From Cristatella mucedo (taxonomy: Eukaryota > Bryozoa > Phylactolaemata > Cristatellidae): a DNA stretch of 64,000 nucleotides. This document shows, piece by piece, positions 15,115 through 64,000 of the stretch (its first letter is position 1; every line of letters begins with the position of its first letter). The DNA lies in the NCBI GenBank assembly GCA_009760855.2, contig WPIO01000250.1:124001-188000 (forward strand), given 5' to 3'. Under the pieces are notes generated by a model. That model was given only the letters and a program-made list of their open reading frames with translations. It searched no databases and had not been told where the DNA came from. The position numbers and the translations under genes are program-made.

Positions 15115-15300
15115 CCCGATTCACCTGGCCGATTCATTGAGGACTCACCAGGTCTCATTCTTCGAAGTCTTACATAGTCTCTCTTATCGGATACTCACCA
15201 GGGCTCACAAACCGGATACTCACTAGTACTTTATTGAATTTTCACTTGGATACAACACACATCATTTATTCGCCTGGTCTCAATTATCGGCGACTCACCT
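15115..15300. repeat. Degenerate minisatellite of splice-donor-like units
   Basis: On the minus strand, five imperfect units of roughly 25-65 bp each carry a 5' splice-site-like core: CCAGGTGAGTCGCC, CTAGTGAGTATCC, CTGGTGAGTATCC, CTGGTGAGTCCTC and CCAGGTGAATCGG. The first coincides with the potential donor at the end of the CARD; the others lie just past the stop and polyadenylation signal. Spacing is irregular and the units are diverged. Confidence 0.55.
15230..15235 (-). terminator. Polyadenylation signal AATAAA overlapping the stop codon
   Basis: AATAAA on the minus strand; its TAA is the in-frame stop of CARD exon b. A GT-rich stretch (GTATCCGGTTTGTGAG) follows about 12-30 nt downstream, as cleavage signals usually require. 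This would leave a very short 3' UTR. Confidence 0.5.
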
Positions 15301-15464
15301 GGATTTGTTTGGCGAAATCCTTTCCGTTCAATAAGATCGGCAAGTGTGGCAGCTCCGACCTCATCAAGACGAAGAGCAGCAACAAAGGCGCTGGCTCCTT
15401 CCTCCCCCTTCTTTAGCACGAGATAAACAAGGTGACCGGCTGCGCCCGTAGCCGTGGCCTTTGC
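15231..15464 (-). CDS. CARD exon b and probable C-terminus
   Basis: C-terminal half of the CARD. The acceptor TTTTTTTGTAG is at 15,465 and the exon starts in phase 0: residues 11-19 HLVYLVLKK, then GASAFVAALRLDEVGAATL and ADLIERKGF. This is the CARD helix 4-6 pattern (LL..L..KG...F..F..AL.....LA.LL), close in layout to Apaf-1's. Two endings are possible. The frame can run on to a TAA at 15,231, which lies inside AATAAA, giving a 78-codon terminal exon. Alternatively, splicing at the consensus donor CCAG|GTGAGT (15,299) leaves phase 1, but no next exon was found to the left. I prefer the terminal version. The intron to CARD exon a is about 2.2 kb and holds LINE debris. Confidence 0.75.
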   Translation of the reverse strand, partial: AKATATGAAGHLVYLVLKKGEEGASAFVAALRLDEVGAATLADLIERKGFRQTNPGESPIIETRRINDVCCIQVKIQ

Positions 15465-15714
15465 CTACAAAAAAAGGCATTGGAGAGAAAAAAGTCAAGA
15501 CGAGATTATTTGACCAGAGCTGAATCGCATCGACAAACACTCCTTGGTGAACATTACTTTATATTTTATGGGTGCACTGTAAGATTCGATTTTCCTATGG
15601 AGGCATTATAAACTATTCACAGCCTAAATCGTACTCTTCGTAGGTGTAGTTGTACATCTCTACAGCTCTTTTTACAGGGACCTGATCGATTATTTTTCGT
15701 ACTAACTGATTTCT

Positions 15715-15788
15715 CCCTGTGATTCGTCCTTGATGTGCTTATACATGCTGACACTGTGCATGCTGCCACTAACCATAAATGCATGTTA
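15715..15788 (+). mobile_element. LINE 3' UTR fragment
   Basis: Short piece (CTCCCTGTGATTCGTCCTTG to GCATGCTGCCACTAACCA) cut off by an opposite-strand LINE 3' end. Confidence 0.7.
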
Positions 15789-15977
15789 TAATAATAATAA
15801 TAATAATTCACTTGATAAAGCGCCCTCAGAGAACTTAATCTCTCTCTAGGCGCTTTACATTTGCTGTAAAGTGAAATGCAATGGAATGGTAAATAAAATC
15901 ATGCTTGAAAAAAATAAACGAAATGAATAATATGGTTAGAGGTGACATGCACAGGGTCAGCATGCAAATGTGGTTAG
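15789..15977 (-). mobile_element. LINE 3' end
   Basis: ATT tail, hairpin and 3' UTR of the LINE on the minus strand. It is the left arm of a foldback with the next feature, inside the intron between the two CARD exons. Confidence 0.85.
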
Positions 15978-16146
15978 TGGTGCATGCCACCCCTAACCAG
16001 GTTATTCATTTTGTTTGTTTGTCTAGCATGATTTCACTCACCATTCAATTGCATTTCCATTTACAGCTAATGTAAAGCGCCTAGAGAGAGATTGAGTTCT
16101 CTGAGGGCACTTTATCAAGTGCATTATTATTTTTATTGTTACTATT
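15978..16146 (+). mobile_element. LINE 3' end
   Basis: Plus-strand 3' UTR, hairpin (AAAGCGCCTAGAGAGAGATT) and ATT-rich tail; right arm of the foldback. Confidence 0.85.
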
Positions 16147-16149
16147 CTC

Positions 16150-17622: not shown

Positions 17623-17780
17623 CTCTATTTCCTCTAACTCTGCGGTAATCAGCCCGTTTCCGGTTATCAGCTGGTTTCCGATCAGAGCACGTGCAATCTG
17701 CATTACTTGTGGCTTGCTCAGTTGATCAGCAATAGCTTTCATATTTGTCCTGATGGCATCATACAGACTTTGGTTTGGGG
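17623..17780 (-). CDS. CARD exon a (helices 1-3)
   Basis: N-terminal half of a CARD, a death-fold domain that recruits partners by CARD-CARD contact in apoptosis and innate immune signalling. The acceptor ATCTTTTGCAG is at 17,781. The exon carries two bases of a split codon, then 52 residues including LYDAIRTNMKAIADQL, VMQIARALIGNQLITGNGL and ITAELEEIE. The pattern of amphipathic helices, then LITGNGLITAELEEI, matches the CARD helix 2-3 region (usually G-L-T-x-x-E-x-E-x-I). The donor GAG|GTAACC leaves phase 0, as CARD exon b needs. The other two frames stop within the exon. Its acceptor phase (1) fits the Roc-COR exon, directly or through the 90-nt linker. A related death-fold family (DEATH, PYD) is less likely. 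Confidence 0.72.
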
Positions 17781-17784
17781 CTGC

Positions 17785-19160: not shown

Positions 19161-19164
19161 AGTA

Positions 19165-20747: not shown

Positions 20748-20750
20748 GAT

Positions 20751-22200: not shown

Positions 22201-22204
22201 TTGT

Positions 22205-23414: not shown

Positions 23415-23429
23415 CAAATATAGAGGCTG

Positions 23430-26747: not shown

Positions 26748-26837
26748 CTTCCCATGACCTCTTCTTAGGTGCTGCCAATGAAGCTGGTAGGTCACTGCTG
26801 GCACAGGGCAGTAGGGCTGCAGCTTTGCCATCATTAC
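26748..26837 (-). CDS. Candidate 90-nt linker exon between COR and CARD
   Basis: This segment has a strong acceptor (CCTTCTTTCTTTCAG) and a donor (GAAG|GTAACC). It is 90 nt long, so phase 1-1 reading gives an uninterrupted Ala/Pro/Lys-rich peptide containing GNDGKAAALLPCASSDLPAS and APKKRSWE. Phase 1 is what the Roc-COR exon donates and what the first CARD exon accepts. A flexible linker here would be sensible, but no domain supports it and the coding call rests on splice sites and phase alone. A different frame through the same DNA stays open to a TGA at 26,616, so a terminal exon of another transcript is the alternative. Confidence 0.45.
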
Positions 26838-33275: not shown

Positions 33276-33795
33276 GTTACCTGCTGCAAAAAAGAAGCCG
33301 GCTGCATAGGTTTTCAAATGAAAGAGACAGCTTAGGCAGACAAGAATCCTGATAGGCAGACCAGTAATACTTCTGCAGCTATTAGGCTGACTGGGTAGGG
33401 TGACTCATCCGAGTCCAAGAGTGAGTTAGTTTACGGTCTGCTCAACGGCCGAAAACTGCACAGAACATTGTGGAGAGGTACACAGAAAAGATTTGTCTGA
33501 GTTTATACGTTAAATAAACAGTATCGTATGGGCACCAGCTCCAAAGAAAGTTGCAAAACATACCTAGAACCAGAGACTAAATCAGATAATACAATGGACA
33601 GATTAAAGTGCGACGCCCAAGGCAATGCACGATATCAGCCCATTAGTCAAACTGGAGTAGAGTGAAAGCAATAATAAAATCAGGACGTACGTAAATCAGT
33701 CTCCAAGGTCAACAAAGAAATGGGTAAACTTGTGCCCATTTGAAGGCTCACGAGGATTATCTCACGAGGAGAGCACTAACGATGTACGGTCATAC

Positions 33796-35614
33796 CTGGC
33801 TGTTGTAGATACATCCACATCGCAGGTATTTTGCAGTGGCACTTGTCGCAATGCCAGGTTCTTGAATGTCGTGGCTCAGCTCTACTTTTCCCGTTATTCG
33901 CCAGTTTATTCCAAGCCACTGGGCGTCCGTGAGGCTGTTGGTCCGTTGGTCTCTCCACGTATCTCGATTCAGGGCATACAAGCTTACATATCGGTGGGAC
34001 GCCTTTCCACGACATTGCCAAATTATCATAGATGCAGTCAAGCAAGGAATGTAAAGCTGTCCAGACTTCCTGCTTGCCAGATTTTGAAAATGCCACCAAT
34101 TCCAAAGCACTCTTGTTACGTCTCATTATTATACGTACATAATCCAGTTTGACGAGTACACCGTCCTTCCAATACGTTGGCTCAGCATTTTTCGAGCGCA
34201 GCCAGGACAACACTGAAGCCAGGTTTGTTGGAAAGAAAGCGAGTGGCATGTAATTTCCCAGGAAGCTGAGCTGCAAGCAAACAGGAGGATCTTTAGCGGC
34301 CTTGTTTAGCCACTCCTGCAGTGTAGAAGGGGGCTGCTCAAGGAGATTACCAGTCAAGATGTACTCATCCTTAGAAGTCGTGATCATGTGAAAATGTTGC
34401 ATAAAATTGCTGACAACATCGACATAGCTACTTCCCAGCAATTGTGCAAAGAAATTTCTATCAAGAAGCCCTTCACGATATGAGTCCATTAAATCTTTGT
34501 AATAGTCGTCAAGTTGAAGACTTTCAGAAGATTCGTGATGCAATACCTTCTTTAAATCGAGAACAATTTGCCGAGGTTGATTGAAAACGAAGTCTTTAAG
34601 GGATGAAGAGTCCTCTAACCATATAATCTGGGATGTAGATACGAGAATTCTAAGTATAGTTTTCAGTTTGGAGTCGTCCGGCTGTGGCTCCAACTGTTCA
34701 TACACTGACTTTCTGACCTGCTCCCATTCCAAATACGGTCGATAGTTGTCATCTTCTGACTTAAGGCCCTTTATTCCTTTCATAATACGAAACCATAATG
34801 CAGGATATTGCTCCGGGGCCTTTAGTTTTTCCTTGACTAATGATTCAAACTCAGATAAGCTTTTACCATTGTCTTTGCAGCTCACCGTTGTGAATGAAAT
34901 GTCAGCAGCTTTTATATTTTTAAGATGCCGTTTGAGGAAGTCGACGTTAGTTTTGGAGGAATCCGAACGTGATTCAAGTACTGTTATGTGATCTGCAAGC
35001 TCTTTTTCAGCATCCAAATGAATTTGGTTTACGTACTTATTCATCTCTTCTTCCACATTCTTGAGTTGGCCTGGTTCAAGACAATCGGAATGCGTGCCAA
35101 CTACGATAACTCGTATCTCTGTTGATTTAGCAAATATCGTCATAAGCCATTTGTTTACTTGCTCCTTCAGATCCTTAACGTTTTGACTAACGTCGAACGC
35201 AATTATGCAAAGTCCATTGGAAGGCAAAAATATTGGAACCACTGTTTGATAAATTTCATGTCCACCAAAGTCATTCACATTTATCATCTGATCCTCAAAC
35301 TTTACAAGTCTCTGATCTATCACACGAGTTCTATCGTCAGCTGCAGCAGTGGATGGCCGGCCGATGAGTAGCGACTGAACGATGCTAGTCTTTCCTGCTC
35401 CCGTGTCTCCAAGCATGTTGATAGTATCACAGAGTAGCCATACCTTCCCCTGAGTGATATCTCGGAAGTACTCTCGAATAGATTTAATTCCCTGGTCACA
35501 CACTGCTGCAGGTGGAAAAACCATTGGATTTCCGTCCAATTTGAGCCTGGTCAGTGAGGTATGAATAACTTCCTCTGGCAGCTCAGTTATATTGTTTCCA
35601 CGTCCAGGATACGC
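33796..35614 (-). CDS. LRR-Roc-COR exon (ROCO-family GTPase)
   Basis: Core exon of a ROCO protein. Roc is a Ras-like GTPase domain that always precedes COR, its dimerisation module. The acceptor TTTTGCTTTAG is at 35,615-35,625, and the exon opens in phase 0 with the end of an LRR (NNITELPEEV, then LTRLKLDGNPM). Exon residues 69-77 are the P-loop GDTGAGKTS, 115-120 the switch II motif DFGGHE, and 174-177 the G4 motif THSD. COR runs roughly from residue 265 (PALWF) to 535, with the typical stretch FNQPRQIVLDLKKVL. A Cys/His-rich tail (HCDKCHC) follows. The reading frame stays open for about 610 codons. It could stop at 33,776, but a donor CAG|GTATGA at 33,796 leaves phase 1 and matches the acceptors further left. 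No kinase follows, so this resembles the non-kinase ROCO proteins (MFHAS1-like) rather than LRRK. Domain identity is firm; the exact 3' exon end is less so. Confidence 0.9.
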
Positions 35615-40044: not shown

Positions 40045-41000
40045 CTACTAAAGCATATTAATATTAATAGTAATTCATTTGATAAAGCGCCCTCAAAGAA
40101 CTCAATCTCTTTCTAGGCGCTTTAGATTTGCTGCAAGGTGAAACTCGATTGAATCGCAAGTAATATCATGCTTGATAAACGACATGAACAAAGTGGTTAG
40201 GGGTGACATGCACAAGGTATGCATGCAAATGTGGTTAGTGGCAGCATGTAGTGTCAGCACGCATAAGCATATGAAGGAGGAATCACAGGGACCCACTAAA
40301 TTCTCTCCTAAATAGGTGTTTTTAAATTATTTTTAAATATGGTCAGGTCAGGGGATGTTCTGACGCAGGTCGGGAGGGAGTTCCAGGCTTTGGGAGCATA
40401 CGAACTAAATGCACGGTCTCCAAAGGTTTTAAGGTTTGTACGAGGTATTTCTAGACTGTTGGATTCCGAATAGCAGGTTGTGCGAGGTTTGGCCTGGTGG
40501 GGCAGTAGATCTGAGGGATAGGCTCTAGCCAAAGAATGGAGTGACCTAAAAGTGAGCGACCAACTTTGAAGTCGATCCGTTGCTTGACTGGTAGCCAGTG
40601 CAGATCGGCGAGAAGTGGTGCGATGTGGCAACAGTGACGCTCACGACAGACGAGCCTAGCTTCCGAGTTTTGCACCACCTGTAATCGCCTGATTGCCCAT
40701 GTCGGTAGGCCAGCCAGCAGCGAGTTACAGAAGTCAGGTCGGGATTTCACAAATGCATGGAGCAACTTAGACGTGGTATACTTATCCAAACAAGCCCGAA
40801 TTTTAGCATTGTTGTGAAACTGAAAGTAGGCAGATTTGACTGTGGAGCTGATGAGGTCGTCTAACGAGAGGTCACTTTGCAACATGACACCTATTTTTCG
40901 ACCTGATTCAATGTAGATGTGCTGGCAGAGCCAATTTTGAGCGTCAGCCTTTCCAATTTCTGAATCACACTGGGTTTTCCCATGACTAGTAATTTAGCAT
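40045..41000 (-). mobile_element. L2/CR1-like LINE 3' part
   Basis: Minus-strand copy with tail, hairpin, C-terminal domain (LLADLHWLPVKQRIDFKV) and the region before it (LQSDLSLDDLISSTVKSAYF). Two main frames overlap, so at least one frameshift. Confidence 0.88.
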
Positions 41001-41030
41001 CAGTTTATCACAAGATAAAGTGATAAACTG
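41001..41030. repeat. Perfect 11-bp inverted repeat
   Basis: CAGTTTATCAC, an 8-nt loop, then GTGATAAACTG. It sits exactly between a LINE family A copy and a LINE family B fragment. Confidence 0.9.
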
Positions 41031-42127: not shown

Positions 42128-42235
42128 CCTGCCATGCCAGTCATTTGATAGGTCGAGATATTGAAGACTCTTCAAACCGAGGGTACCAGTAGGGTAAGTC
42201 TTCAGGCAGTTGTCATTAAGACTCAGCACCTGCAA
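42128..42235 (-). CDS. LRR exon, 108 nt, phase 0-0
   Basis: This exon encodes 36 residues with the LRR pattern LQVLSLNDNCL and LQYLDLSND. It lies between a good acceptor (CCTCTCTTTAG) and a consensus donor (G|GTAAGT). It is a multiple of three and phase 0 at both ends, so it can splice directly to the phase 0 start of the Roc-COR exon 6.5 kb downstream. The join would put about ten extra residues between LDLSND and NNITELPEEV, longer than a standard LRR loop, so an unrecognised exon or a non-canonical repeat is possible. The sequence differs clearly from the cassette exons, so this is an older, single-copy member of the LRR region. Confidence 0.8.
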
Positions 42236-45687: not shown

Positions 45688-46208
45688 AATAATAATAATA
45701 ATAATTCACTTGATAAAGCGCCCTCAGAGAACTTAATCTCTCTCTCTAGGCGCTTTACATTTGCTGTAAAGTGAAATGCAATTGAATGGTAAGTAAAATC
45801 ATCCTTGAAAAACAAACAAGATGAATAATATGGTTAAGGGTGACATGCACAGGGTCAGCATGCAAATGTGGTTAGTGGCAGCATGCACAGTGTCAGCACG
45901 CATGAGCACATCAAGGACGAATCACAGGGACCCACTAAATGCTGTCCTAGATAGGTGTGTTTTTAGGTTCCTTTTAAATGTGGTCAGTTCAGGGGATGTT
46001 CTGACGCAGGTCGGGAGGCAGTTCCAGGCTTTGGGAGCATATGAACTAAATTCACGGTCTCCAAAGGATTTAAGGTTTGTATGAGGTATTTCTAGACTGT
46101 TGGATTCCGAAAAGCGGGTGGTACGATGCTTAGCCTGATGGGGTAGTATATCTGACAGATAGGCTGGAGCCATAGAATGAAGGGACCTAAAAGTGAGCGA
46201 CAAAACCT
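45688..46208 (-). mobile_element. L2/CR1-like LINE 3' end
   Basis: Minus-strand copy with an open C-terminal frame of about 93 codons (APAYLSDILPHQAKHRTTRF) and an intact hairpin and ATT tail. Among the youngest-looking copies. Confidence 0.9.
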
Positions 46209-46370
46209 TAATAATAATAATAATATTAATTAACTTGATAAAGCGCCCTCGGAGAGCTTAATATCTCTCTAGGCGCTTTACATTTGCTGTAAAGTGAAAT
46301 GCAATTGAATGGTAAGTAAAATCATGCTTGAAAAACAAACAAAATGAATAGCATGGCTAGGAAAGGGGCA
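46209..46370 (-). mobile_element. LINE 3' end, in tandem
   Basis: A second ATT tail, hairpin and 3' UTR begins exactly where the previous copy's coding part stops, in the same orientation. Confidence 0.85.
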
Positions 46371-47941: not shown

Positions 47942-50890
47942 TGAAAACGATCGCCGTATTACTAAACTTGAAAAGAGCATGCGTGGGTTAAATTGAAACC
48001 AAATAGGACGAAGTAACTACTGCTTGCTTTGGCGGTACCTCAATTAGCCGAGAAGAAATATTCATTTTGGCAAATCAAACGTCTTACTTGAATTAGTGAG
48101 CCCGAAACAATCGTTACTATTGCTGCTGACTATGACACAATGACAGCCTATATTTAAAATATAAAAGCTCAACTGTACGGTACATGCTGTTAACCTTAAC
48201 GTCATATTATCCTTCAAGTTTTTGCAAACCTAACGATACAATCTGTAAATGGTGTGTGTCAGCAGAAAGTATGCTTAAAATAAAACGTTCCCTTTACGAT
48301 GATGCAAAGGTCATTAGAGCGATGCAAAAAGAGTTATTTCATTTTGACGTTTCTTACGGCCGTAGGTCGCAAGGCAAAATTAAATTAAGCTGTTGTCACT
48401 ACAACCATTTTTTTTAGTGAGAAATACTTCGTTGGAATGTCAGCACAGCCAGGCAGGCTAAACGTCTCTGAAATTATCAGCATTCCATTTATTCAATTAG
48501 CTTTGGGGGATAGAGAGGTTTAAGCGATAGATTGAAAGAACGCTTTCGTTGTTATGGTCATTTATGGTTTCTCGATGCAACCCGCGAGTTTTCCTTGCCA
48601 GTGGCTGCGAAGTTGCGCCTGTTGCTTGTATTAGGCCGGTAAACACAATTCCACTAAGCTAAATGTTCTGCAAGTGTGTATGTCAGGTAAATACGCCCTA
48701 ACGGAATTTCAACCATTGGCTGCTAACCTAACAAAATACAGGGTTTGAGGTCTGTCTATTATTTACCAGGTGATTCAAAACAAGCATTCGTTTTCGAATG
48801 CCAAATAACCACAGGCTGTTAGCCCTGAATAAAACCTAAATGTAGTGCAGCATATTTACACCAGTTCATCCAATTCGCAACCAGCCTAGAACACCTACTA
48901 GGAGTAGCTCGATTTTTCTCACTTCCGATTATCATAGACGCATTTAACAAACGATAAGATCACCAGACTAAAAAACTTTTGGCGTATTATTTCAAGTACA
49001 AACTGTTTGATCGATGCACGAACTAATTTCAGATACCGTCGCGCCTTCTAGCACCTCTAATTCAGCCAAACTGAATACTGGCACAGCCGTAACGGCTGTC
49101 AAAGCTGCCTGTAAGCAGGCTATTTATACCGGCACGTTAAGTAATTTGATTCAGGGGTTCTTTCAAAACAGCACTCTTTAATACTTCAACAAGTACAATG
49201 GGATCGAAGGAGGATATCACGTGCCATATGAATCTATGGTTTATCCTGCTCACGTCCTAATTACGCTGCTTTTCTTTTTACATATAGGCCCGACATCATA
49301 TTCAAGCATTTAATTCAGACAACGACGAACGCAAATGTTGCTAACAGTAAAAGCTCCTAAACGTACCGTATAGATCGAAAGCGTGACTAACCGTTATAAA
49401 TTCTCAACCTAAAAGCTAGTTGCATGCTTTAATTGTAAATTACACAAAACCTTACCGTGTGGGCAAGCCAAGTCGCAAGTGGGAATGCTATAAGAAAGAA
49501 CCTTGCTAACGACCAAGGTTTAAGAACGCAGTGCGACAACGTCATTTTCTCNAGGAAAAGAGAGGACATGAGCCGTCACGAAAACAATTCTTTTTTATTA
49601 AAGACAGTCGTTTATACTACGCCGCTTTGGCCTTCGAGACCAAACGAGTTACGAAGAAATGAAATTGAAATATAGTTTGGATCTTTTAAAAATCCAAGCG
49701 TTTAAACTTTCCTTCTGAGCTTACCGACTTCATGCCTTCCAATCCATCAGGCAGGTTATTAAGACGATTCCTACCAGCTTCCAGAATCTTCAGTGCATGC
49801 AGCTGGCACATGGATGTAGGAAGAGTTGTGAGATTATTCTCACTGATAGCGAGCATCTCCAGCTACAGAATAAAAGGAAAAGTAATGCAATGTTAGAACC
49901 GCTCACGCTTGTTATCCACCAATCTTTAAAGAAAGCACGGCCAATTTCTCAATACAGGTAAGTACCAGGCACAAGACATACTGGTCACCTTAGCATAATG
50001 TTCATCTAAATCGCTAGTGAATGATCGATCGATCCAATCAAATGATGTTAATAAACCAGTTCTTACTTAGGCGGCGGTAATGCAAGACAAATAGCAAGTG
50101 GCATAGCTAAAGTTCCACTCACAGGCTTAAGAAACACTTTGACTTTCTAAGCTTGCCGAGAATCGTAAGCCGAGCAAAAAACATTATTAAAAATAGCGAA
50201 ACGTGACGTCAGTGCACACTTTAATTAGATGAGTAAGAATCAATACGAGGCTGTAGGATACTTGAGCATTTTCGCTGCACCTTGAGGATCACAAAGCCAT
50301 CTAAAGTGGCAGTATCAGTCGACAGATTTACGAGGTTTAGTTGCCCATTAGCTGTAGATTGAGACGAACTACAACGCGTGCTGTCGCATCAATTTAAATT
50401 GCAGTCCATCAAAAATGGCAGCCAGCGTAGAAAACCTAAAAAAGATTGTTGCATCGAGGGAACCTAATTCGGTAAAATTAAGAAACCTGTGTACTACAAA
50501 CTTCCTGCGAAGACTAAAGAAACATTCCATGGCACTGTTTTGGAATGCTTACAAGTGAATTACAATGGGCCTTAAGCAGTACTCCTGCGTACGGCTTTCT
50601 TCATTCAATGCAATTCTTCGCTAAAGCTTCTGAACGACCTCTGGAATTGATTGCGTTCAAATCCTAAAAGTACTTGTGGGAATGAGTCACTTGTCCTATA
50701 CAGAACACCAATAGGTTGCACTAGTCTAATAGCTCAAGTCATTCACCTCAGCTTCAAAAAAGCCATGCTGCATTCATGCTGAATACCTAAGATGACATGA
50801 TGTGGACAGTGAATTACCTAACACTGTTACCAGTAGTGCAGTTGCCTTTTCTAGCGATTTCAGTCACTATTTAGAGAAGTAAGTGCTACC
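47942..50890 (-). repeat. Cassette unit 1, diverged and rearranged
   Basis: Aligns with units 2-5 at both ends. About 0.8 kb present elsewhere (equivalent to roughly 51,050-51,890) is missing near 48,105. About 0.75 kb of unrelated sequence sits at 48,275-49,030, between homologous flanks (CAGCAGAAAGT on the left, CAGATACCGTCGC on the right). The right half is much closer to unit 2 than the left half. Confidence 0.75.
49725..49862 (-). CDS. LRR cassette exon, unit 1
   Basis: Exon of 138 nt (46 codons), phase 0-0, with acceptor TTTTATTCTGTAG and donor GTAAGC. It encodes two LRRs: LEMLAISENNLTTLPTSMC, then LHALKILEAGRNRLNNLPDG. It is the most divergent intact cassette exon. It is one codon shorter than its siblings and differs in both repeats, including LEAGRNRL where the others have LNLSHC or LNLSQC. 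It lies in the left-most and most rearranged unit, which fits an older copy at the edge of the array. An ambiguous base (N) at 49,552 lies downstream in the intron and does not affect it. Confidence 0.85.
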
Positions 50891-52785
50891 TGAAAACGAT
50901 CGCCATATAACTAAACTCAACAAGAGCCTGTGTGGTTTAAAGTGAAACCAACCAAGGACGAAGTAGTTATTGCATGCTTTGGCAGTCCCTCAATTTGCCC
51001 GAAAAGAAACATTCTTTTTGGCTTATCAAACCCCGTAGTTGAAAGTGCAAGGCCGAAAGTTGTAATATTACATGCTGGCCAAATAACACTATACTTAGTA
51101 AAGCCGTCTGTGTATTCATATTTAAGCTTTGCATTAGCAAGCATTAAATTGTATACAATCAATAAGTGTGATTAACCATTTCTACCTAAATCTTGTTTCT
51201 TGTATCACTACGAAAGTCAAAGAGTGACGCACGTTGAGTTTCTGAAAGGTGATGTACCACCAGTGACTTACCATTGTCTTTTAACCACCTCAAACGAGTA
51301 TTGAAGTGTCCTAACTGCGAGATTAAGCTCACGATTTTATTACTATTGTCTATTTAAGTGGTACCAAGAGAAAACTTGTCTGCATACATTGCTGATAATT
51401 GAGAAATCCGCTCAGCCGAACGCCCTACGACAGTAGCTGACGCGGCTTACGGACGGCCATGAGAGGTTTCGTCGACCTGCTATTTAGATACTAGAAAACA
51501 GCAGATGGGTCCGGCTAAACGTGTGTGTGTTAATTCAAGAAAAGACAAGACTAGGCACATCCGCACAAAGGAAGGCTCTTGTCACTAGGATCGAAAGATA
51601 ATACGAAGCTGCATATTTACATTAAGTTAAGACGTAATTTAATGTGCGTAAAAAATATGCTCAAACGCTATTAGACAGTTTGACGTCCGAACCATTTATG
51701 CTTTTACGGCATGTTAAAGCTTAAATCATGATGAAAGCGTAGCCCATCCTTAGCTAACAAGTAGAACAGAATCAGCAAATAATTTCGCGTCTCACTTCAA
51801 TACTTTCCTCCTATCCTTTATCAACTCAAACTGAGCTTATTTTACGAGCCAAATAAATCAAACCTCTAGGTCAATGTAATCGGTGAGTAAATAAGCGTGA
51901 CTATTGTTGTCGACATCGACGTATTAACAGCCTATATTTAATGTACAAAAGATCAAATGTACGTTACGTGCTGTTAACCTAAAAAGCAATATTTACTTTA
52001 ATTTTTTGCACACCTAATGGTACGATCGGTATGCCGTACGTCTCAGATGAAAGTCTTTTTTCCGATACCGTCGCATGTTCTAGCACCTCTAATTCAGCCA
52101 AACTGAACACCGGCACAGCCGTAACGGCTGTCAAAGCTGCCTGTAAGCAGGCTATTTATACTGGCACGTGGAGTATTGTCATTCATAGGTTCTTTCAAAA
52201 CAGCACTCTTTAATAATTCGACTGGTACAACGGTATCGAAGGAGGATATCACGTGCCATACGAATCTATGGTTCATCCAGCTCACGTCATAATTATGCTC
52301 CTTTTTCTTTTACATATAGGCCCGACATCATATTCAGGCATTTTAATCAGAAAAAGATGAATTCAAATGTTGTTGAAAGTAAAGGCTCCTAAACGTAACG
52401 TATCGAGCGAAAGCATGACTAACTGTTATACGTTCTCAATCTAAGAGCTAGTTGCATGCTTAATTTGAAAATTACTCAAAACCCTAAAGTGTGACCTTTG
52501 CAAGTTAATAATAGGAATGCTCTAAGAGAGTACCTTGCTAAAACGACGGTTAAAGAACCCAGCGCCACAACATCATTTTCTCGTTTCAGTAGTTTCAACG
52601 AATGTATGTAACCGAGTAAATGAAAGGACATGTGCCGCACTAAAACAATTCTTTTGAATTAAAGACCATCGTTTATACTACGCCGCCATGGCCTCTGAGA
52701 GCACACGACTTACAAGGGGAAAGGAATTCAAAATATTTAAAACGTTTCAAAAATCCTTGCGTTTCAACTTTTCGTCTGAGCTTAC

Positions 52786-52926
52786 CGCCTTCATGCCTTC
52801 CCATCCATCGGGCAGTTCATTTAGATGACAATGAGACAAATTAAGCTTCTTCAGTGCATGCAGCCGGCATATGGATGTAGGAAGCGATTTCAGACCATAG
52901 TTGCAACTGATATCGAGCTCCTCCAG
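52786..52926 (-). CDS. LRR cassette exon, unit 2
   Basis: Exon of 141 nt (47 codons), phase 0-0, acceptor TTTTATTCTGTAG, donor GCG|GTAAGC. It encodes two LRRs: LEELDISCNYGLKSLPTSIC, followed by LHALKKLNLSHCHLNELPDG and a short WEGMKA end. The second LRR and the 3' two thirds of the exon are identical to unit 4. The first LRR differs at residues 7-13, on the part of an LRR that forms the concave ligand face. In LRR proteins such repeats stack into a solenoid used for ligand or partner recognition. Confidence 0.87.
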
Positions 52927-55855
52927 CTACAGAATAAAAGGAAAAGCACTGCACTGTTAGAACCGCTCACGCTTGTTATCCACCAATCTTCAAAGAAAGC
53001 ACGGCCAATTTCTCAATACAGGTAAGTACCAGGCACAAGACATACTGGTCACCTTAGCATAATGTTCATCTAAATCGCTAGTGAATGATCGATCGATCCA
53101 ATCAAATGATGTTAATAAACCAGTTCTTACTTAGACGGCGGTAATGCAAGAGAAATAGCAAGTGGCAGAGCTAAAGTTCCACTCACAGGCTTATGAAACA
53201 CTTTGACTTTCTAAGCTTGCCAAGAATCGTAAGCCGAGCAAAAAACATTATTAAAAATAGCGAAACGTGACGTCAGTGCACACTTTAATTAGATGAGTAA
53301 GAATCAATACGAGGTTGTAGGATACTTGAGCATTTTCGCTGCACCTTGAGGATCACAAAGCCATCTAAAGTGGCAGTATCAGTCGACAGATTTACGAGGT
53401 TTAGTTGCCCATTAGCTGTAGATTGAGACGAACTACAACGCGTGCTGTCGCATCAATTTAAATTGCAGTTCACCATAAACGGCAGGCAGCAGAGAAATCT
53501 TAAGGAAAACTAGTTTATCGAGGTGGCTTAACTCAGTAAAATTGAGGGACATGTGTACTACTAACTTCCTGCGTAGACTAAAGAAACATTCCATGGCACT
53601 GTTTTGGAATGATTACAAGTGAATTACAATGCGCCTTAAGCAGTACTCCTGCGTACGGCTTTCTTCATTCAATGCAATTCATCGCTAAAGCTTTTGAACG
53701 ACCTCTGGAATTGATTGCGTTCAAATCCTAAAAGTACTTGTGGGAATGAGTCACTTGTCCTATACAGAACACCAATAGGTTGCACTAGTCTAATAGCTCA
53801 AGTCATTCACCTCAGCTTCAAAAAAGCCATGCTGCATTCATGCTGAATACCTAAGATGACATGATGTGGACAGTGAATTACCTAACACTGTTACCAGTAG
53901 TGCAGTTGCCTTTTCTAGCGATTTCGGTCACTATTTAGAGAAGCAAATGCTACCTGAAAACGATCGCCGTATAACTAAACTCAACAAGAGCCTGTGTGGG
54001 TTTAAGTGAAACCAACAAGGACGAAGAAGTTATTGCATGCTTTGGCAGTCCCTCAATTTGCCCGAAAAGAAACATTCTTTTTGGCTTATCAAACCCCGTA
54101 GTTGAAAGTGCAAGGCCGAAAGTTGTAATATTACATGCTGGCCAAATAACACTATACTTAGTAAAGCCGTCTGTGTATTCATATTTAAGCTTTGCATTAG
54201 CAAGCATTAAATTGTATGCAATCAATAAGTTTGATTAACCATTTCTACCTAAATCTTGTTTATTGTATCACTACGAAAGTCAAAGAGTGACGCACGTCGA
54301 GTTTCTGAAAGGTGATGTACCACCAGTGACTTACCATTGTCTTTTTACCACCTCAAACGAGTATTGAAGTGTCCTAACTGCGAGATTAAGCTCACGATTT
54401 TATTACTATTGTCTATTTAAGTGGTACCAAGAGAAAACTTGTCTGCATACATTGCTGATAATTGAAAAATCCGCCCAGCCGAACGCCTTACGACAGTAGC
54501 TGACGCGGCTTACGGACGCCCATGAGAGGTTTCGTCGACCTGCTATTTAGATACTAGCAAACAGCAGATGGGTCCGGCTAAACGTGTGTGTGTGTGTGTT
54601 CATTCAAGAAAAGAAAAGACTAGACACATCCGCACGAAGGAAGGCTCTCGTCACTAGGATCGAAAGATAACACGAAGCGGCATATTTACTTAAAGTTAAG
54701 ACGTAATTTAACGTGCGTAACAAACATGCTTAAACGCTATTAGACAGTTTGACGTCCGAACCATTTATGCTTTTACGGCATGTTACAACTTATATCATGA
54801 TAAAAGCGTAGCCTATCCTTTGCTGACAAGTAGAATAGAATTAGCCAAAAATTTAGCGTCTCACTTCAATACTTTCCTCCTATCCTTCATCAACTTAAAC
54901 TGAGCTTATTTTACGAGCCAAATAAAACAAACCTCTAGGTCAATGTAATCGATGAGTAAATAAGCGTGACTATTGTTGTCGACATCGACGTAATAACAGC
55001 CTATATTTAATGTATAAAAGATCAACTGTACGTTACGTGCTGTTAACCTAAAAATCAATATTTACTTCAATTTTTCGCACACCTAATAGTACGATCGGTA
55101 TGCCGTACGTCTCAGATGAAAGTCTTTCTTCCGATACCGTCGCATGTCCTAGCACCTCTAATTCAGCCAAACTGAACACCAGCACAGTCGTCACGGCTAT
55201 CAAATCAGCCTGTAAGCAGGCTCTTTATACTGGCACGTGAAGTATTGTCATTCATAGGTTCTTTCAAAACGGCACTCTTTAATAATTCGACTAGTACAAC
55301 GGTATCAAAGGAGGATATCACGTGCCATAAGAATCTACGGTTTATCCAGCTCACCTCCTGATTATGCTTATTTTTCTTTTACATATAGGCCCGACATCAT
55401 ATTCGGGCAGTTTAATCAGAAAAAGATGAATTCAAATGTTGTTGAAAGTAAAGGCTCCTAAACGTAACTCATCGAGCAAAAGCATGACTAACTGTTATAC
55501 GTTCTCAACCTAAGAGCTAGTTGCATGCTTAATTTGAAAATTACTCAAAACCCTAAAGTGTGACCTTTGCAAGTTACAAATAGGAATGCTCTAAGAGAGT
55601 ACCTTGCTAACGACGACGGTTAAAGAACCCAGCGCCACAACATCATTTTCTCGTTTCAGTAGTTTCAACGAATGTATGTAACCGAGTAAATGAAAGGACA
55701 TGTGCCGCACTAAAACAATTCTTTTGAATTAAAGACCATCGTTTATACTACGCCGCCATGGCCTCTGAGAGCACACGACTTACAAGGGGAAAGGAATTCA
55801 AAATATTTAAAACGTTTCAAAAATCCTTGCGTTTCAACTTTTCGTCTGAGCTTAC

Positions 55856-55956
55856 CGCCTTCATGCCTTCCCATCCATCGGGCAGTTCATTTAGACGACA
55901 ATGAGACAAATTAAGCTTCTTCAGTGCATGCAGCCGGCATATGGATGAAGGAAGAA
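55856..55956 (-). pseudogene. Broken LRR cassette exon, unit 3
   Basis: The second LRR (LHALKKLNLSHCRLNELPDG) and the donor GTAAGC are intact. The first LRR's start and the splice acceptor are missing. Against unit 5, 76 bp are absent, and this equals the shortfall of the whole unit (2,994 bp against 3,070). The junction falls at a shared AAGA-like stretch (GGAAG in the exon, GTAAG in the intron), which suggests microhomology. Because sibling exons are phase 0-0, skipping this one would keep the frame and simply drop two LRRs. A cryptic upstream acceptor cannot be excluded. Confidence 0.8.
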
Positions 55957-58850
55957 CATGCATGCTTATTATTCAACAGTCTTCTAAGAGAGCACGGCCT
56001 ATTTCTCATTACAGGTAAGTACCTGGCACAAGACATACTGGTCACCTTAGCATAATGTTCACCTAAATCGCTAGTGAACGATCGATCGATCAAATCAAAT
56101 GATATCAATAAACCAGTTCTTACTTAGGCGGCGGAAATGCAAGAGAACTAGCAAGTGGCATACCTGAAGTTCCACTCACAGGCTTAAGAAGCACTTTGAC
56201 TTTCTAAGCTTGCTAAGAATCGTAAGCCGAGGAAAAAAACATTATTAAAAATAGCGAAACGTGACGCCAGTGCACGCTTTAATTAGATGAGTAAGAATCA
56301 ATACGAGGTTGTAGGATACTTGAGCATTTTCGGGGCACCTTGAACATCACAAAGCCATCTAAAGTGGCAGTATCAGTCGACAGATTTACGAGATTTAGTT
56401 GCCCATTAGCTGTAGATTGAGACGAACTACAACGCGTGCTGTCGCATCAATTTAAATTGCAGTTCACCATAAACGGCAGGCAGCAGAGAAATCTTAAGGA
56501 AAACTAGTTTATCGAGGTGACTTAACTCAGTAAAATTGAGGGATATGTGTACTACTAACTTCCTGCGTAGACTAAAGAAACATTCCATGGCACTGTTTTG
56601 GAATGCTTACAAGTGAATTAAAATGCCCCTTAAGCAGTACTCCTGCGTACGGCTTTCTTCATTCAATGCAATTCATCGCTAAAGCTTTTGAACGACCTCT
56701 GGAATTGATTGCGTTCAAATCCTAAAAGTACTTGTGGGAATGAGTCACTTCTCCTATACAGAACACCAATAGGTTGCCCTAGTCTAATAGCTCAAGTCAT
56801 TCACCTCTGCTTCAAAAAAGCCATGCTGCATTCATGCTGAATACCTAAGATGACATGATGGGGACAGTGAATTACCTAACACTGTTACTCTTAGTGCAGT
56901 TGCCTTTTCTAGCGATTTCGGTCACTATTTAAAGAAGTAAGTGCTACCTGAAAACGATCGCCATATAAATAAACTCAACAAGAGCCTGTGTGGGTTTAAG
57001 TGAAACCAACAAGGACGAAGAAGTTATTGCATGCTTTGGCAGTCCCTCAATTTGCCCGAAAAGAAACATTCTTTTCGGCTTATCAAACCCCGTAGTTGAA
57101 AGTGCAAGGCCGAAAGTTGTAATATTACATGCTGGCCAAATAACACTATACTTAGTAAAGCCGTCTGTGTATTCATATTTAAGCTTTGCATTAGCGAGCA
57201 TTAAATTGTATACAATCAATAAGTGTGATTAACCATTTCTACCTAAATCTTGTTTATTGTATCACTACGAAAGTCAAAGAGTGACGCACGTTGAGTTTCT
57301 GAAAGGTGATGTACCACCAGTGACTTACCATTGTCTTTTTTTTACCACCTCAAACGAGTATTGAAGTGTCCTAACTGCGAGATTAAGCTCACGATTTTAT
57401 TACTATTGTCTATTTAAGTGGTACCAAGAGAAAACTTGTCTGCATACATTGCTGATAATTGAAAAATCCGCCCAGCCGAACGCCTTACGACAGTAGCTGA
57501 CGCGGCTTACGGACGCCCATGAGAGGTTTCGTCGACCTGCTATTTAGATACTAGCAAACAGCAGATGGGTCCGGCTAAACGTGTGTGTGTGTGTTAATTC
57601 AAGAAAAGACAAGACTAGACACATCCGCACGAAGGAAGGCTCTCGTCACTAGGATCGAAAGATAACACGAAGCGGCATATTTACTTAAAGTTAAGACGTA
57701 ATTTAACGTGCGTAACAAACATGCTTAAACGCTATTAGACAGTTTGACGTCCGAACCATTTATGCTTTTACGGCATGTTACAACTTATATCATGATAAAA
57801 GCGTAGCCTATCCTTTGCTGACAAGTAGAATAGAATTAGCCAAAAATTTAGCGTCTCACTTCAATACTTTCCTCCTATCCTTCATCAACTTAAACTGAGC
57901 TTATTTTACGAGCCAAATAAAACAAACCTCTAGGTCAATGTAATCGATGAGTAAATAAGCGTGACTATTGTTGTCGACATCGACGTAATAACAGCCTATA
58001 TTTAATGTATAAAAGATCAACTGTACGTTACGTGCTGTTAACCTAAAAATCAATATTTACTTCAATTTTTCGCACACCTAATAGTACGATCGGTATGCCG
58101 TACGTCTCAGATGAAAGTCTTTTTTCTGAAACCGTCGCATATCCTAGCACCTCTAATTCAGCCAAACTGAACACCAGCACAGTCGTCACGGCTATCAAAT
58201 CAGCCTGTAAGCAGGCTCTTTATACTGGCACGTGAAGTATTGTCATTCATAGGTTCTTTCAAAACGGCACTCTTTAATAATTCGACTATTACAACGGTAT
58301 CAAAGGAGGATATCACGTGCCATAAGAATCTACGGTTTATCCAGCTCACCTCCTGATTATGCTTAATTTTTCTTTTACATATAGGCCCGACATCATATTC
58401 GGGCATTTTAATCGGAAAAAGATGAATTCAAATGTTTTTGAAAGTAAAGGCTCCTAAACGTAACTCATCGAGCAAAAGCATGACTAACTGTTATACGTTC
58501 TCAACCTAAGAGCTAGTTGCATGCTTAATTTGAAAATTACTCAAAACCCTAAAGTGTGACCTTTGCAAGTTACAAATAGGAATGCTCTAAGAGAGTACCT
58601 TGCTAAAACGACGGTTAAAGAACCCAGCGCCACAACATCATTTTCTCGTTTCAGTAGTTTCAACGAATGTATGTAACCGAGTAAATGAAAGGACATGTGC
58701 CGCACTAAAACAATTCTTTTGAATTAAAGACCATCGTTTATACTACGCCGCCATGGCCTCTGAGAGCACACGACTTACAAGGGGAAAGGAATTCAAAATA
58801 TTTAAAACGTTTCAAAAATCCTTGCGTTTCAACTTTTCGTCTGAGCTTAC

Positions 58851-58991
58851 CGCCTTCATGCCTTCCCATCCATCGGGCAGTTCATTTAGATGACAATGAG
58901 ACAAATTAAGCTTCTTCAGTGCATGCAGCCGGCATATGGATGTAGGAAGCGATTCCAGACTCCAGTTGTTACGGATATCGAGCTCCTCCAG
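58851..58991 (-). CDS. LRR cassette exon, unit 4
   Basis: Exon of 141 nt, phase 0-0, acceptor GTCATTCTTCAG, donor GCG|GTAAGC. It encodes LEELDIRNNWSLESLPTSIC, then LHALKKLNLSHCHLNELPDG and WEGMKA. Compared with the unit 2 exon there are seven base differences. All lie in a 21-nt window covering residues 7-13, and each affected codon (five codons) changes its amino acid. The remaining 120 nt are identical. The acceptor differs in sequence from units 1 and 2 but is equally good. Confidence 0.87.
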
Positions 58992-61920
58992 CTGAAGAAT
59001 GACACGAAATGCAATGCAATGCTAGAACCGGTCAAGCTTATTATCCAACTCTTTAAAGAGAGCACGGCCTATTTCTCATTACAGGTAAGTACCAGGCACA
59101 AGACATACTGGTCACCTTAGCATAATGTTCATCTAAATCGCTAGTGAATGATCGATCGATCCAATCAAATGATATTAATAAACCAGTTCTTACTTAGACG
59201 GCGGTAATGCAAGAGAAATAGCAAGTGGCATAGCTAAAGTTCCACTCACAGGCTTAAGAAACACTTTGACTTTCTAAGCTTGCCAAGAATCGTAAGCCGA
59301 GCAAAAAACATTATTAAAAATAGCGAAACGTGACGTCAGTGCACACTTTAATTAGATGAGTAAGAATCAATACGAGGTTGTAGGATACTTGAGCATTTTC
59401 GCTGCACCTTGAGGATCACAAAGCCATCTAAAGTGGCAGTATCAGTCGACAGATTTACGAGGTTTAGTTGCCCATTAGCTGTAGATTGAGACGAACTACA
59501 ACGCGTGCTGTCGCATCAATTTAAATTGCAGTTCACCATAAACGGCAGGCAGCAGAGAAATCTTAAGGAAAACTAGTTTATCGAGGTGACTTAACTCAGT
59601 AAAATTGAGGGACATGTGTACTACTAACTTCCTGCGTAGACTAAAGAAACATTCCATGGCACTGTTTTGGAATGCTTACAAGTGAATTACAATGCGCCTT
59701 AAGCAGTGCTCCTGCATACGGCTTTCTTCATTCAATGCAATTCATCGCTAAAGCTTTTGAACGACCTCTGGAATTGATTGCGTTCAAATCCTAAAAGTAC
59801 TTGTGGGAATGAGTCACTTGTCCTATACAGAACACCAATAGGTTGCACTAGTCTAATAGCTCAAGTCATTCACCTCTGCTTCAAAAAAGCCATGCTGCAT
59901 TCATGCTGAATACCTAAGATGACATGATGGGGACAGTGAATTACCTAACACTGTTACTCTTAGTGCAGTTGCCTTTTCTAGCGATTTCGGTCACTATTTA
60001 GAGAAGTAAGTGCTACCTGAAAACGATCGCCGTATAACTAAACTCAACAAGAGCCTGTGTGGGTTTAAGTGAAACCAACAAGGACGAAGAAGTTATTGCA
60101 TGCTTTCGCAGTCCCCCAATTTTCCCAAAAAGAAACATTCTTTTCGGCTTATCAAGCCCCGTAGTTGAAAGTGCAAGGGCGAAAGTTGTAATATTACATG
60201 CTGGCCAAATAACACTATACTTAGTAAAGCCGTCTGTGTATTCATATTTAAGCTTTGCATTAGCAAGCATTAAATTGTATACAATCAATCAATAAGTGTG
60301 ATTAACCATTTCTACCTAAATCTTGTTTATTGTATCACTACGAAAGTCAAAGAGTGACGCACGTTGAGTTTCTGAAAGGTGATGTACCACCAGTGACTTA
60401 CCATTGTCTTTTTACCACCTCAAACGAGTATTGAAGTGTCCTAACTGCGAGATTAAGCTCACGATTTTATTACTATTGTCTATTTAAGTGGTACCAAGAG
60501 AAAACTTGTCTGCATACATTGCTGATAATTGAAAAATCCGCCCAGCCGAACGCCTTACGACAGTAGCTGACGCGGCTTACGGACGCCCATGAGAGGTTTC
60601 GTCGACCTGCTATTTAGATACTAGCAAACAGCAGATGGGTCCGGCTAAACGTGTGTGTGTGTGTTAATTCAAGAAAAGATAAGACTAGACACATCCGCAC
60701 GAAGGAAGGCTCTCGTCACTAGGATCGAAAGATAATACGAAGCGGCATATTTACTTAAAGTTAAGACGTAATTTAACGTGCGTAACAAATATGCTTAAAC
60801 GCTATTAGACAGTTTGACGTCCGAACCATTTATGCTTTTACGGCATGTTACAACTTATATCATGATGAAAGCGTAGCCTATCCTTTGCTGACAAGTAGAA
60901 CAGAATTAGCCAAACATTTAGCGTCTCACTTCAATACTTTCCTCCTATCCTTCATCAACTTAAACTGAGCTTATTTAACGAGCCAAATAAAACGAACCTC
61001 TAGGTCAATGTAATCGGTGAGTAAATAAGCGTGACTATTGTTGTCGACATCGAAGTAATAACAGCCTATATTTAATGTATAAAAGATCAACTATACGTTA
61101 CGTGCTGTTAACCTAAAAATTAATATTTCCTCCAATTTTTCGCACACCTAATAGTACGATCGGTATACCGTACGTCTCAGATGAAAGTCTTTTTTCCGAT
61201 ACCGTCGCATGTCCTAGCACCTCTAATTCAGCCAAACTGAACACCAGCACAGTCGTCACGGCTATCAAAGCTGTCTGTAAGCAGGCTCTTTATACTGGCA
61301 CGTGAAGTATTGTCATTCATACGTTCTTTCAAAACGGCACTCTTTAATAATTCGTCTAGTACAACGGTATCAAAGGAGGATATCACGTGCCATAAGAATC
61401 TACGGTTTATCCAGCACACGTCCTAATTATGCTTATTTTTCTTTTACATATAGGCCCCACATCATATTCGGGAATTTTAATCAGAAAAAGATGAATTCAA
61501 ATGTTGTTGAAAGTAAAGGCTCTTAAACGTAACTCATCGAGCAAAAGCATGACTAACTGTTATACTTTCTCAACCTAAGAGCTAGTTGCATGCTTAATTT
61601 GAAAATTACTCAAAAACCTAAAGTGTGACCTTTGCAATTTATAAATAGGAATGCTCTAAGAGAGTACCTTGCTAACGACGACGGTTAAAGAACCCAGCGC
61701 CACAACATCATTTTCTCGTTTCAGTAGTTTCAACGAATGTATGTAACCGAGTAAAGGAAAGGACATGTGATGCACTAAAACAATTCTTTTGAATTAAAGA
61801 CCATCGTTTATACTACGCCGCCATGGCCTCTGAGAGCACGCGACTTACAAGGGGAAAGGAATTCAAAATATTTAAAACGTTTCAAAAATCCTTGCGTTTC
61901 AACTTTCCGTCTGAGCTTAC

Positions 61921-62061
61921 CGCCTTCATGCCTTCCCATCCATCGGGCAGTTCATTTAGACGACACTGAGACAAATTAAGCTTCTTCAATGCATGCAGCT
62001 GGAACACGAATGGAGGAAGAGTTGTGAGCTTCTCGTCGTAACTGATATCGAGCTCCTCCAA
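61921..62061 (-). CDS. LRR cassette exon, unit 5
   Basis: Exon of 141 nt, phase 0-0, acceptor CATTCTGCAG, donor GCG|GTAAGC. It encodes LEELDISYDEKLTTLPPFVF, then LHALKKLNLSQCRLNELPDG and WEGMKA. The first LRR differs from units 2 and 4 through residue 20; the second LRR differs by only two residues. This is the most upstream complete cassette exon in the window. Another unit begins at 63,088 and runs off the right end, so further LRR exons are expected there. Confidence 0.87.
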
Positions 62062-64000
62062 CTGCAGAATGACACCAAAAGTGATGCGATGTAAGAACCG
62101 TGCACGCTTATTGTCCAACTTTCTTCTAAGGGAGCACGGCCTATTTCTCATTACAGGTAAGTACCATGCACAAGACAAACTGGTCATCTTGGCATAATTC
62201 TTACTAAATCGCTAGTGAATGCGTTCATCGTTACAATATACCAATATTAATAAACCAGTTCTTACTTAGACGACGGTAATGCAAAAAAATAGCAAGCGCT
62301 AAACTTGAAGTTCCAAGCACTGGCTAAAAAAACACCAAGACTTTCTATGCTTGCGAGGAATCGTAACAGAGGAAAAGAAAATTATTAAAAATAGCGAAAC
62401 AAGACGCCAGTGCACACTTTAATTAGATGAGTAAGAATCAATAGCAGGCTGTCGGATACATGAGCATTTTCGCGGCACCTTGAAAATCACAAAGCCATCT
62501 AAAGTGGCAGCATCAGTCGACAGATTTACGAGATTTAGTTGCCCATTAGCTGTAGATTGAGACGAACTACAACGCGTGCTGTCGCATCAATTTAAATTGC
62601 AGTTCACCATAAACGGCAGGCAGCAGAGAAATCTTAAGGAAAACTAGTTTATTGAGGTGACTTAACTCAGTAAAATTGAGGGATATGTGTACTACTAACT
62701 TCCTGCGTAGACTAAAGAAACATTCCATGGCACTGTTTTGGAATGCTTACAAGTGAATTACAATGCGCCTTAAGCAGTGCTCCTGCATACGGCTTTCTAT
62801 ATTCAATGCAATTCATCGCTAAAGCTTCTGAACGACCTCTGGAATTGATTGCGTTCAAATCCTAAAAGTACTTGTGGGAATGAGTCACTTGTCCTATACA
62901 GAACACCAATGGGTTGCACTAGTCTAATAGCTCAAGTCATTCACCGCAGCATCAAAAAAGCCCTGCTGCATTCATGCTGAATACCTAAGATGACCTGATG
63001 GGGACAGTGAATTACCTAACACTGTTACCAGCAGTGCAGTTGCTTTTCTAGCGATTTCGGTCACTATTTAGAGAAGTAAGTGCTACGTGAAAACGATCGC
63101 CGTATAAGTAAACTCAACAAGAGCCTGTGTGGGTTTAAGTGAAACCAGCAAGGACGAAGAAGTTATTGCATGCTTTGGCAGTCCCTCAATTTGCCCGAAA
63201 AGAAATATTCTTTTCGGCTTATCAAACCCCGTAGTTGAAAGTGCAAGGCCGAAAGTTGTAATATTACATGCTGGCCAAATAACACTAAACTTAGTAAAGC
63301 CGTCTGTGTATTCATATTTAAGCTTTGCATTAGCAAGCATTAAATTGTATACAATCAATAAGTGTGATTAACCGTTTCTACCTAAATCTTGTTTATTGTA
63401 TCACTACGAAAGTCAAAGAGTGACGCACGTTGAGTTTCTGAAAGGTGATGTACCACCAGTGACTTACCATTGTCTTTTTACCACCTCAAACGAGTATTGA
63501 AGTGTCCTAACTGCGAGATTAAGCTCACGATTTTATTACTATTGTCTATTTAAGTGGTACCAAGAGAAAACTTGTCTGCATACATTGCTGATAATTGAAA
63601 AATCCGCCCAGCCGAACGCCTTACGACAGTAGCTGACGCGGCTTACGGACGCCCATGAGAGGTTTCGTCGACCTGCTATTTAGATACTAGCAAACAGCAG
63701 ATGGGTCCGGCTAAACGTGTGTGTGTGTTAATTCAAGAAAAGACAAGACTAGACACATCCGCACAAAGGAAGGCTCTCGTCACTAGGATCGAAAGATAAT
63801 ACGAACCGGCATATTAACTTAAAGTTAAGACGTAATTTAACGTGCGTAACAAATATGCTTAAACGCTATTAGACAGTTTGACGTCCGAACCATTTATGCT
63901 TTTACGGCATGTTACAACTTATATCATGATGAAAGCGTAGCCTATCCTTTGCTGACAAGTAGAACAGAATTAGCCAAACATTTAGCGTCTCACTTCAATA

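Follow-up and report, generated by a model that had tools for sequence, protein, structure and literature searches.

Whether leucine-rich repeats (LRRs), a Roc GTPase with its COR region and a CARD belong to one gene or to neighbouring genes is the question raised by the minus strand of a 64,000-nucleotide (nt) stretch of the Cristatella mucedo genome (Bryozoa; GenBank assembly GCA_009760855.2, contig WPIO01000250.1). This stretch, hereafter the window, corresponds to positions 124001-188000 of contig C167, and the comparative set was drawn from the same 572-Mb genome. The exon sequences and their splice phases indicate that the minus strand probably carries the 3' part of one LRR-Roc-COR-CARD gene, a member of a large family, and we infer that a single transcript joins Roc-COR and CARD. 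Unless otherwise stated, the features of the gene described below lie on the minus strand, and positions are given in window coordinates.

The centre of the proposed gene is a 1,819-nt exon (33796-35614) encoding the end of the last LRR, the Roc GTPase and the COR region. It is bounded by a phase-0 acceptor (ctttag/GCG, the slash marking the exon edge) and a phase-1 donor (CCAG/gtatga), and is open for 606 codons up to the donor. The three GTPase motifs that an initial annotation of this locus had described as intact were all present: the P-loop GDTGAGKTS (35384-35410), which aligns to the Roc domain of LRRK2, the switch II motif DFGGHE (35255-35272), which aligns to DFAGHE of LRRK2, and the guanine-specificity motif THSD (35084-35095), which aligns to THLD of LRRK2. 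Pfam recognised Roc in this exon with an E-value of 4.3e-13 (50 bits versus a cut-off of 27). With a single-sequence query, the closest PDB structures were LRRK2 Roc (1.7e-11) and LRRK1 (2e-6, residues 2-429), and the LRRK1 match shrinks to residues 2-198 with a two-sequence profile. The Roc domain expected of a ROCO-family protein, with P-loop, switch II and specificity motif, was thus found by Pfam, by motif and by alignment to LRRK2. No kinase after COR was among the Pfam matches of the pieces scanned, and no dedicated kinase search was made.

Two further exons lie 3' of the Roc-COR exon. CARD exon 1 (17623-17780) begins at a phase-1 acceptor (tttgcag/CC) and ends at a phase-0 donor (GAG/gtaacc). 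CARD exon 2 (15231-15464) follows a phase-0 acceptor (ttgtag/GCA) and ends either with the stop codon TAA at 15231-15233 or at a donor (ccag/gtgagt) after 15299. The stop is overlapped by AATAAA (15230-15235), a possible poly(A) signal that is also present in the close copies C49 (18.7 kb), C215 and C173. The proposal that these two exons form a CARD when joined was borne out by a hidden Markov model check, in which the phase-0 join matched Pfam CARD at 3.6e-6 (27.3 bits versus a cut-off of 23.9). Two of the three paralog CARDs scanned exceeded this cut-off, and the third scored 23.4 versus 23.9. Among the PDB matches of a five-row CARD profile, consisting of the window and four relatives, were the NLRC4 CARD (7e-6) and the Apaf-1 CARD (0.005); the top match was a designed protein, and T4 lysozymes appeared as noise from 0.017. 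With the window sequence alone as the query, the PDB search reached only 0.25.

LRR exons precede the Roc-COR exon on the same strand, as had been noted. Outside the Roc-COR exon the window contains five, all symmetric 0-0, plus one truncated copy. The exon at 61921-62061 encodes two LRRs in 47 amino acids between CAG/TTG and GCG/GTAAGC, and the surrounding frame matched Pfam LRR_8 at 8.8e-11. Copy comparison identified tandem copies with two LRRs at 58851-58991 and 52786-52926, and a more diverged tandem copy of 46 amino acids at 49725-49862. The last LRR exon before the Roc-COR exon (42128-42235) encodes 36 amino acids between CTTTAG/TTG and AGG/GTAAGT. The copy at 55856-55966 is missing its acceptor and first LRR and is probably skipped in splicing. 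LRRs N-terminal to Roc are therefore recognised by the LRR_8 match and by the phase-0 exons 5' of the Roc-COR exon, their joining being predicted from splice phase.

The resulting chain of phases is 0-0 for the LRR exons, 0-1 for Roc-COR, 1-0 for CARD exon 1 and 0-stop for CARD exon 2. The initial annotation had every junction in phase and included a 1-1 exon; the 0-0, 0-1, 1-0 and 0-stop junctions held. The 1-1 exon fits a possible 90-nt linker at 26748-26837, which has splice-site letters but had no counterpart in the 63 loci compared and is without paralog support. The introns of about 7 and 9 kb given earlier fit this linker; the full distance between the Roc-COR exon and CARD exon 1 is 16.0 kb. 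Six of the 35 minus-strand frames of at least 58 amino acids in this interval were scanned and gave no Pfam match. No extra exon between Roc-COR and CARD emerged from blastn and tblastx comparison with the paralog regions, the matches listed being taken for repeats. In C194 the corresponding gap is 3.3 kb, and the only stretch common to this gap and the window interval has further matches at 8.6 kb in the window and in C180; we take it for a repeat.

The Roc-COR exon search of the genome returned 67 matches. Manual merging reduced these to 35 loci, of which 16 have an open frame throughout the exon. For CARD, three protein searches and one DNA search gave 31 loci after manual merging, many of which are single weak exon matches (E up to 1). 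The protein searches used single-sequence queries with 24, 37 and 27 candidates scored, and for two DNA searches with repeat-holding queries the best 40 of 7572 and the best 40 of 4417 candidates were scored. A same-strand CARD was present within 30 kb 3' of the Roc-COR exon at nine of the 35 loci, at distances of 3.3 to 30 kb: 16.0 kb in the window, 6.1 kb in C193, 13.4 kb in C150, 3.3 kb in C194, 11.5 and 13.6 kb in C49, 24.5 kb in C357, 14.8 kb in C180 and 29.8 kb in C215. Among these nine, Roc-COR is broken in C357, C180 and C215, one C49 copy is split, and the second CARD exon of C193 is interrupted. Ten Roc-COR loci had at least one CARD no more than 30 kb away, and in nine of these the nearest was 3' and on the same strand (P = 3e-5, for an expectation of one in four); as the Roc-COR copies are related, this value measures consistency and not independent events. 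A genome search with one LRR exon, in which the best 150 of 202 candidates were scored and all 150 matched, placed same-strand LRR exons up to 80 kb 5' of 17 of the 35 Roc-COR loci, with up to 13 per locus. LRR exons were 3' at two of the 35, one set of these being 5' of another fragment, and on the opposite strand at one. There appears to be a large LRR-Roc-COR family in this genome, with about 35 Roc-COR loci and a CARD at the end in some copies.

Several results speak against the reading of the window as a single gene. COR scored under the Pfam cut-offs (COR-B 13.6 of 27 bits in the window, COR-A 17.5 of 35.3 bits in the C194 paralog), and the single-sequence structure model of the Roc-COR exon had a mean predicted local distance difference test score of 37.9 and was not used. 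At CARD exon 1, the acceptor in relatives is ttgtag/AA or similar, and the window reads ttgttgAA at this site; as the relatives' acceptor is gone, tttgcag/CC, located 36 nt downstream in the same phase 1, must serve. The second C173 copy has also lost the relatives' acceptor and has the same downstream site. The ccag/gtgagt sequence after CARD exon 2 is a strong donor that is also present in close relatives, and CARD exon 2 could therefore splice onward and not end the protein; in C194, a stop directly follows the CARD. Beyond the Roc-COR donor, a stop occurs within 13 codons in ten of the 14 copies read. The offset is shared by seven (C167, C193, C128, both C49 copies, C150 and C274), which include five of the six CARD-linked copies read, and differs in three (C107, C263 and C256), so that an unspliced end is possible. 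No stop was seen in C194, C237, C148 and C550, three of which were read only 44-59 nt past the donor. No CARD match was found for 11 of the 16 open Roc-COR exons. The protein search found no CARD for C128, the closest relative of the window (82% identical). The 3' ends of C274 and C150 are 98.6% identical, and C274 had no match to the C150 CARD exon 2 DNA among the best 40 of 4417 candidates. Neither C128 nor C274, taken as positive controls of the linkage, thus showed it.

One account of these data is that two neighbours were duplicated as a block, namely an LRR-Roc-COR gene ending just past the exon and a separate small CARD gene. No transcript joins Roc-COR and CARD, and the shared TAG offset, the range of Roc-COR-CARD distances, the presence of CARD loci without a nearby Roc-COR (C69, C4 and C173) and the majority of open Roc-COR exons without a CARD match would all suit such an arrangement, while joint duplication of two neighbouring genes would be expected to leave the same order as one gene. 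We nevertheless consider it quite improbable. The phase-1 CCAG/GTA donor was kept at all 14 Roc-COR exon ends read (from 14 of the 35 loci), including the silent third position of a Gly codon, whereas the stop offset was shared by only seven; the donor is thus better kept than the stop. The window TAG (33776-33778) starts 18 nt beyond this conserved donor and is therefore probably intronic. CARD exon 1 starts with an acceptor in the matching phase 1 in the window (at the downstream site), C49, C173/C215, C180 and C194, and in four of seven copies the frame contains no Met from the preceding stop to the CARD, the other three having one there. The comparison of C194 with the window yielded no convincing coding exon in between. 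Roc-COR and CARD have also diverged to a similar degree, with dN (nonsynonymous) and dS (synonymous substitution rates) of 0.40 and 1.16 for Roc-COR and 0.57 and 1.00 for CARD between C167 and C194. The conserved donor, the phase-matched acceptor and the similar divergence speak against joint duplication of two genes. For CARD and Roc-COR in one polypeptide there are, in all, matching phases, the donor in 14 of 14 copies and the order at nine of 35 loci, set against the stop past the donor in ten of 14.

A second account is that family copies splice to different effector exons at a variable 3' end, the CARD being one of several. As a description of the family we regard this as a serious possibility, though short of an even chance; for part of the family the sequences make a variable 3' end likely, and it is compatible with an LRR-Roc-COR-CARD gene in the window. 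The 11 open Roc-COR exons without a CARD match are in line with it, the phase-1 donor being kept in all eight of these that were read, as are the near-identical 3' ends of C274 and C150 and the up to forty ROCO domain combinations reported in animals (PMC11378527). However, no other 3' domain was identified: a search for Death domains as a 3' module gave 13 matches in the genome (E up to 0.01), all of them on contigs other than those of the Roc-COR loci. Some diverged CARDs may also have been missed, given the single-sequence queries, the few candidates scored and the two contigs, C237 and C256, that end within only about 11 and 9 kb 3' of the Roc-COR exon. The window copy could instead be a decaying pseudogene of such a gene, which we think unlikely. 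Decay would fit the loss of the relatives' CARD exon 1 acceptor, the truncation of the LRR exon at 55.86 kb, the 5-6 residues inserted into CARD exon 1 compared with relatives, and the many broken family copies. It would also fit the final 86 codons of the Roc-COR exon, where dN/dS versus C193 and C128 is about 2 from few changes; these codons are perhaps relaxed or diversifying. Against decay, the 606 codons have stayed open despite an 18% residue difference from C128, which is also open, the GTPase motifs are intact, a usable phase-1 acceptor is present 36 nt downstream at CARD exon 1, and the dN/dS of 0.35 over the whole Roc-COR exon (one pair, C167 versus C194) indicates purifying selection. 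Selection on CARD exon 2 is likewise purifying: its dN/dS was 0.17-0.51 in all 16 pairs with dS above 0.5, and 0.46-1.47 in five closer pairs; for the window copy it was 0.25-0.40 versus C150, C180, C194 and C49, but 0.46 and 0.88 versus two closer copies. Selection on CARD exon 1 was weak (dN/dS 0.48-1.12 in ten pairs). One LRR-Roc-COR-CARD gene in the window is the reading that we consider probable.

The LRR exons from 49.7 kb onwards lie in a tandem array (49027-64000, no strand assigned) of units of about 3.0-3.07 kb with one LRR exon each, the spacing within the window being 2,994-3,071 nt. The array runs past the window end, with two further LRR exons at window coordinates 64985 and 68445, and a total of seven LRR-exon copies were observed in tandem units of about 3 kb from 49027 to window coordinate 68585. 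Two copies, at 49.7 and 68.4 kb, have diverged further. The copies at 52.8, 55.9, 58.9 and 61.9 kb form a mosaic: identity is 92-100% in the flanks beyond 300 nt upstream and as far as 900 nt downstream, but lower in the first LRR and in the 100-300 nt that precede it. For the pair at 52.8 and 61.9 kb, identity was 97% in the 300 nt after the exon and also 97% in the segment 600-900 nt ahead of it, versus 75% in the first LRR and 72% in the preceding 100 nt. As the divergent patch includes intron, the mosaic suggests that different LRR halves were introduced by recombination or conversion, rather than that selection acted on codons alone.

Several other observations were made on the locus and its relatives. 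A Cys-pair tail, WHCDKCHCKIPAMWMYLQQP, extends up to the Roc-COR splice donor (33797-33856) and is kept in paralogs; its pattern between COR and donor, WHCxxC...IPGLWMYPRKP, was also seen in 13 paralog ends, in a looser form in C550. The only Pfam match of the tail was CRIPT, below threshold (14.2 of 25.5 bits), and the tail is possibly a small metal-binding knuckle. CARD copies with an identical exon-1 protein were found on two contigs (C173:105069-116475 and C215:40849-42842). C173 contains LRR exons and had no Roc-COR match in the genome search with the Roc-COR exon, which together with the identical protein suggests a recent segmental duplication. A degenerate reverse-transcriptase-type repeat (HITPLLADLHWLPVKQRIDFKVL...) is present in many copies in the window (5085-6391, 9176-9774, 12293-13110, 40055-41005 and 45688-46361) and across the paralog regions, and a similar fragment follows the interrupted CARD exon 2 of C193.

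By analogy with the families involved, we infer an immune function with a ligand, a GTP switch and a CARD partner, and the steps from sensing to caspase are proposed on that footing. The LRR arc, assembled from exchangeable phase-0 exons, would act as the sensor and bind a microbial or danger ligand. Binding would alter Roc-COR, either in its nucleotide state or in its dimer state, and this change would free or cluster the C-terminal CARD. The CARD would then seed a filament of CARDs on an initiator caspase that itself bears a CARD, or on a different CARD adaptor, and the outcome would be cell death or inflammatory signalling. Two single open frames, at C518:1849819-1851132 (492 amino acids) and C111:11328110-11329585 (528 amino acids), match both CARD and caspase in register, and these CARD-caspases are candidate partners of the window CARD. 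No match to NACHT was found in the 572-Mb genome by an exon-by-exon search (28 candidates scored), and the only NB-ARC match was below the cut-off and on another contig (six candidates scored). As intron-split domains could escape such a search, the NACHT result is suggestive only. It is a tentative and somewhat doubtful idea that the job of NLRs has moved in this animal to a GTP-gated analogue of the inflammasome or apoptosome, formed by a recombining LRR-Roc-COR-CARD family with exchangeable LRR exons, CARD-caspase output and no detectable NACHT.

If the reading is true, NLR-like receptors would have arisen in an animal lineage with a Roc GTPase in place of the NACHT or NB-ARC ATPase. Such receptors would show independently that the combination of a repeat sensor, a nucleotide switch and a death-fold domain is a repeatedly invented design. 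The output of ROCO GTP switching would also become testable, as the CARD offers a simple read-out (filament formation, caspase cleavage) compared with the complex read-outs of LRRK2 and MFHAS1.

NLRC4 and Apaf-1 consist of a CARD, a NACHT or NB-ARC domain and repeats, and thus combine a repeat sensor, a nucleotide switch and a CARD. Among natural proteins in the PDB, the CARD profile matched their CARDs best. They differ from the window gene in having an N-terminal CARD and an ATPase switch, whereas the window gene would have a C-terminal CARD and a Roc GTPase, so that the order is mirrored. LRRK1 and LRRK2 have the LRR-Roc-COR core that is predicted for the window gene and are the closest solved structures; the window gene differs from them in that a CARD and, among the Pfam matches of the pieces scanned, no kinase was recognised after COR. 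MFHAS1/MASL1 also has this core, with immune links reviewed in PMC4104024, where its layout of LRR followed by ROC-COR is called the simplest and no CARD is mentioned for it. Among bacterial conflict proteins, PMC8195603 describes an LRR - AP-GTPase - COR type for which an immune setting is proposed; LRRs are joined there to a Roc-type GTPase and COR, as predicted here, but the proteins are prokaryotic, and no animal CARD is mentioned in the passage on them. A literature search on ROCO proteins with CARD, LRR or death domain, mostly without full text, gave no paper describing LRR-Roc-COR-CARD genes, and neither the passages of a coral paper naming MFHAS1 nor a term search of a sponge NLR paper yielded ROC with CARD. 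In Aplysia, a ROC-COR with TIR is reported (PMC9334734), and NLRs are reported in many invertebrate phyla (PMC11508797).

The two closest parallels concern expanded families. Trichoplax adhaerens has an expanded animal ROCO set of at least 17, and PMC4104024 reports LRR, CARD and death domains among its ROC-COR proteins. The NLR-like layout put forward in the initial annotation is supported in its CARD and Roc, both recognised by Pfam; that such a layout would lack precedent is weakened by the Trichoplax proteins. The order LRR-Roc-COR-CARD is not given, and LRR exon arrays are not described, in the passages on Trichoplax. Brown algae have an expanded LRR-ROC-COR family of proposed immune receptors, in which LRRs are on separate in-phase exons that duplicate and shuffle (PMC11378527, citing Zambounis et al. 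2012). As described there, the algal exon is 72 bp, with one LRR in phase 2 and no further domain, whereas the array exons of the window measure 138-141 nt and encode two LRRs in phase 0, and several copies of the family have a CARD further on. If the window reading holds, the parallel with brown algae would suggest that recombining receptor repertoires arise preferentially from LRR-ROCO genes. As the nucleotide-binding domain recognised is Roc, and the exon-by-exon searches placed neither NACHT nor NB-ARC on this contig, the window gene is, judged by its predicted domains, a variant of the ROCO proteins that resembles NLRs in layout, yet is not an NLR.

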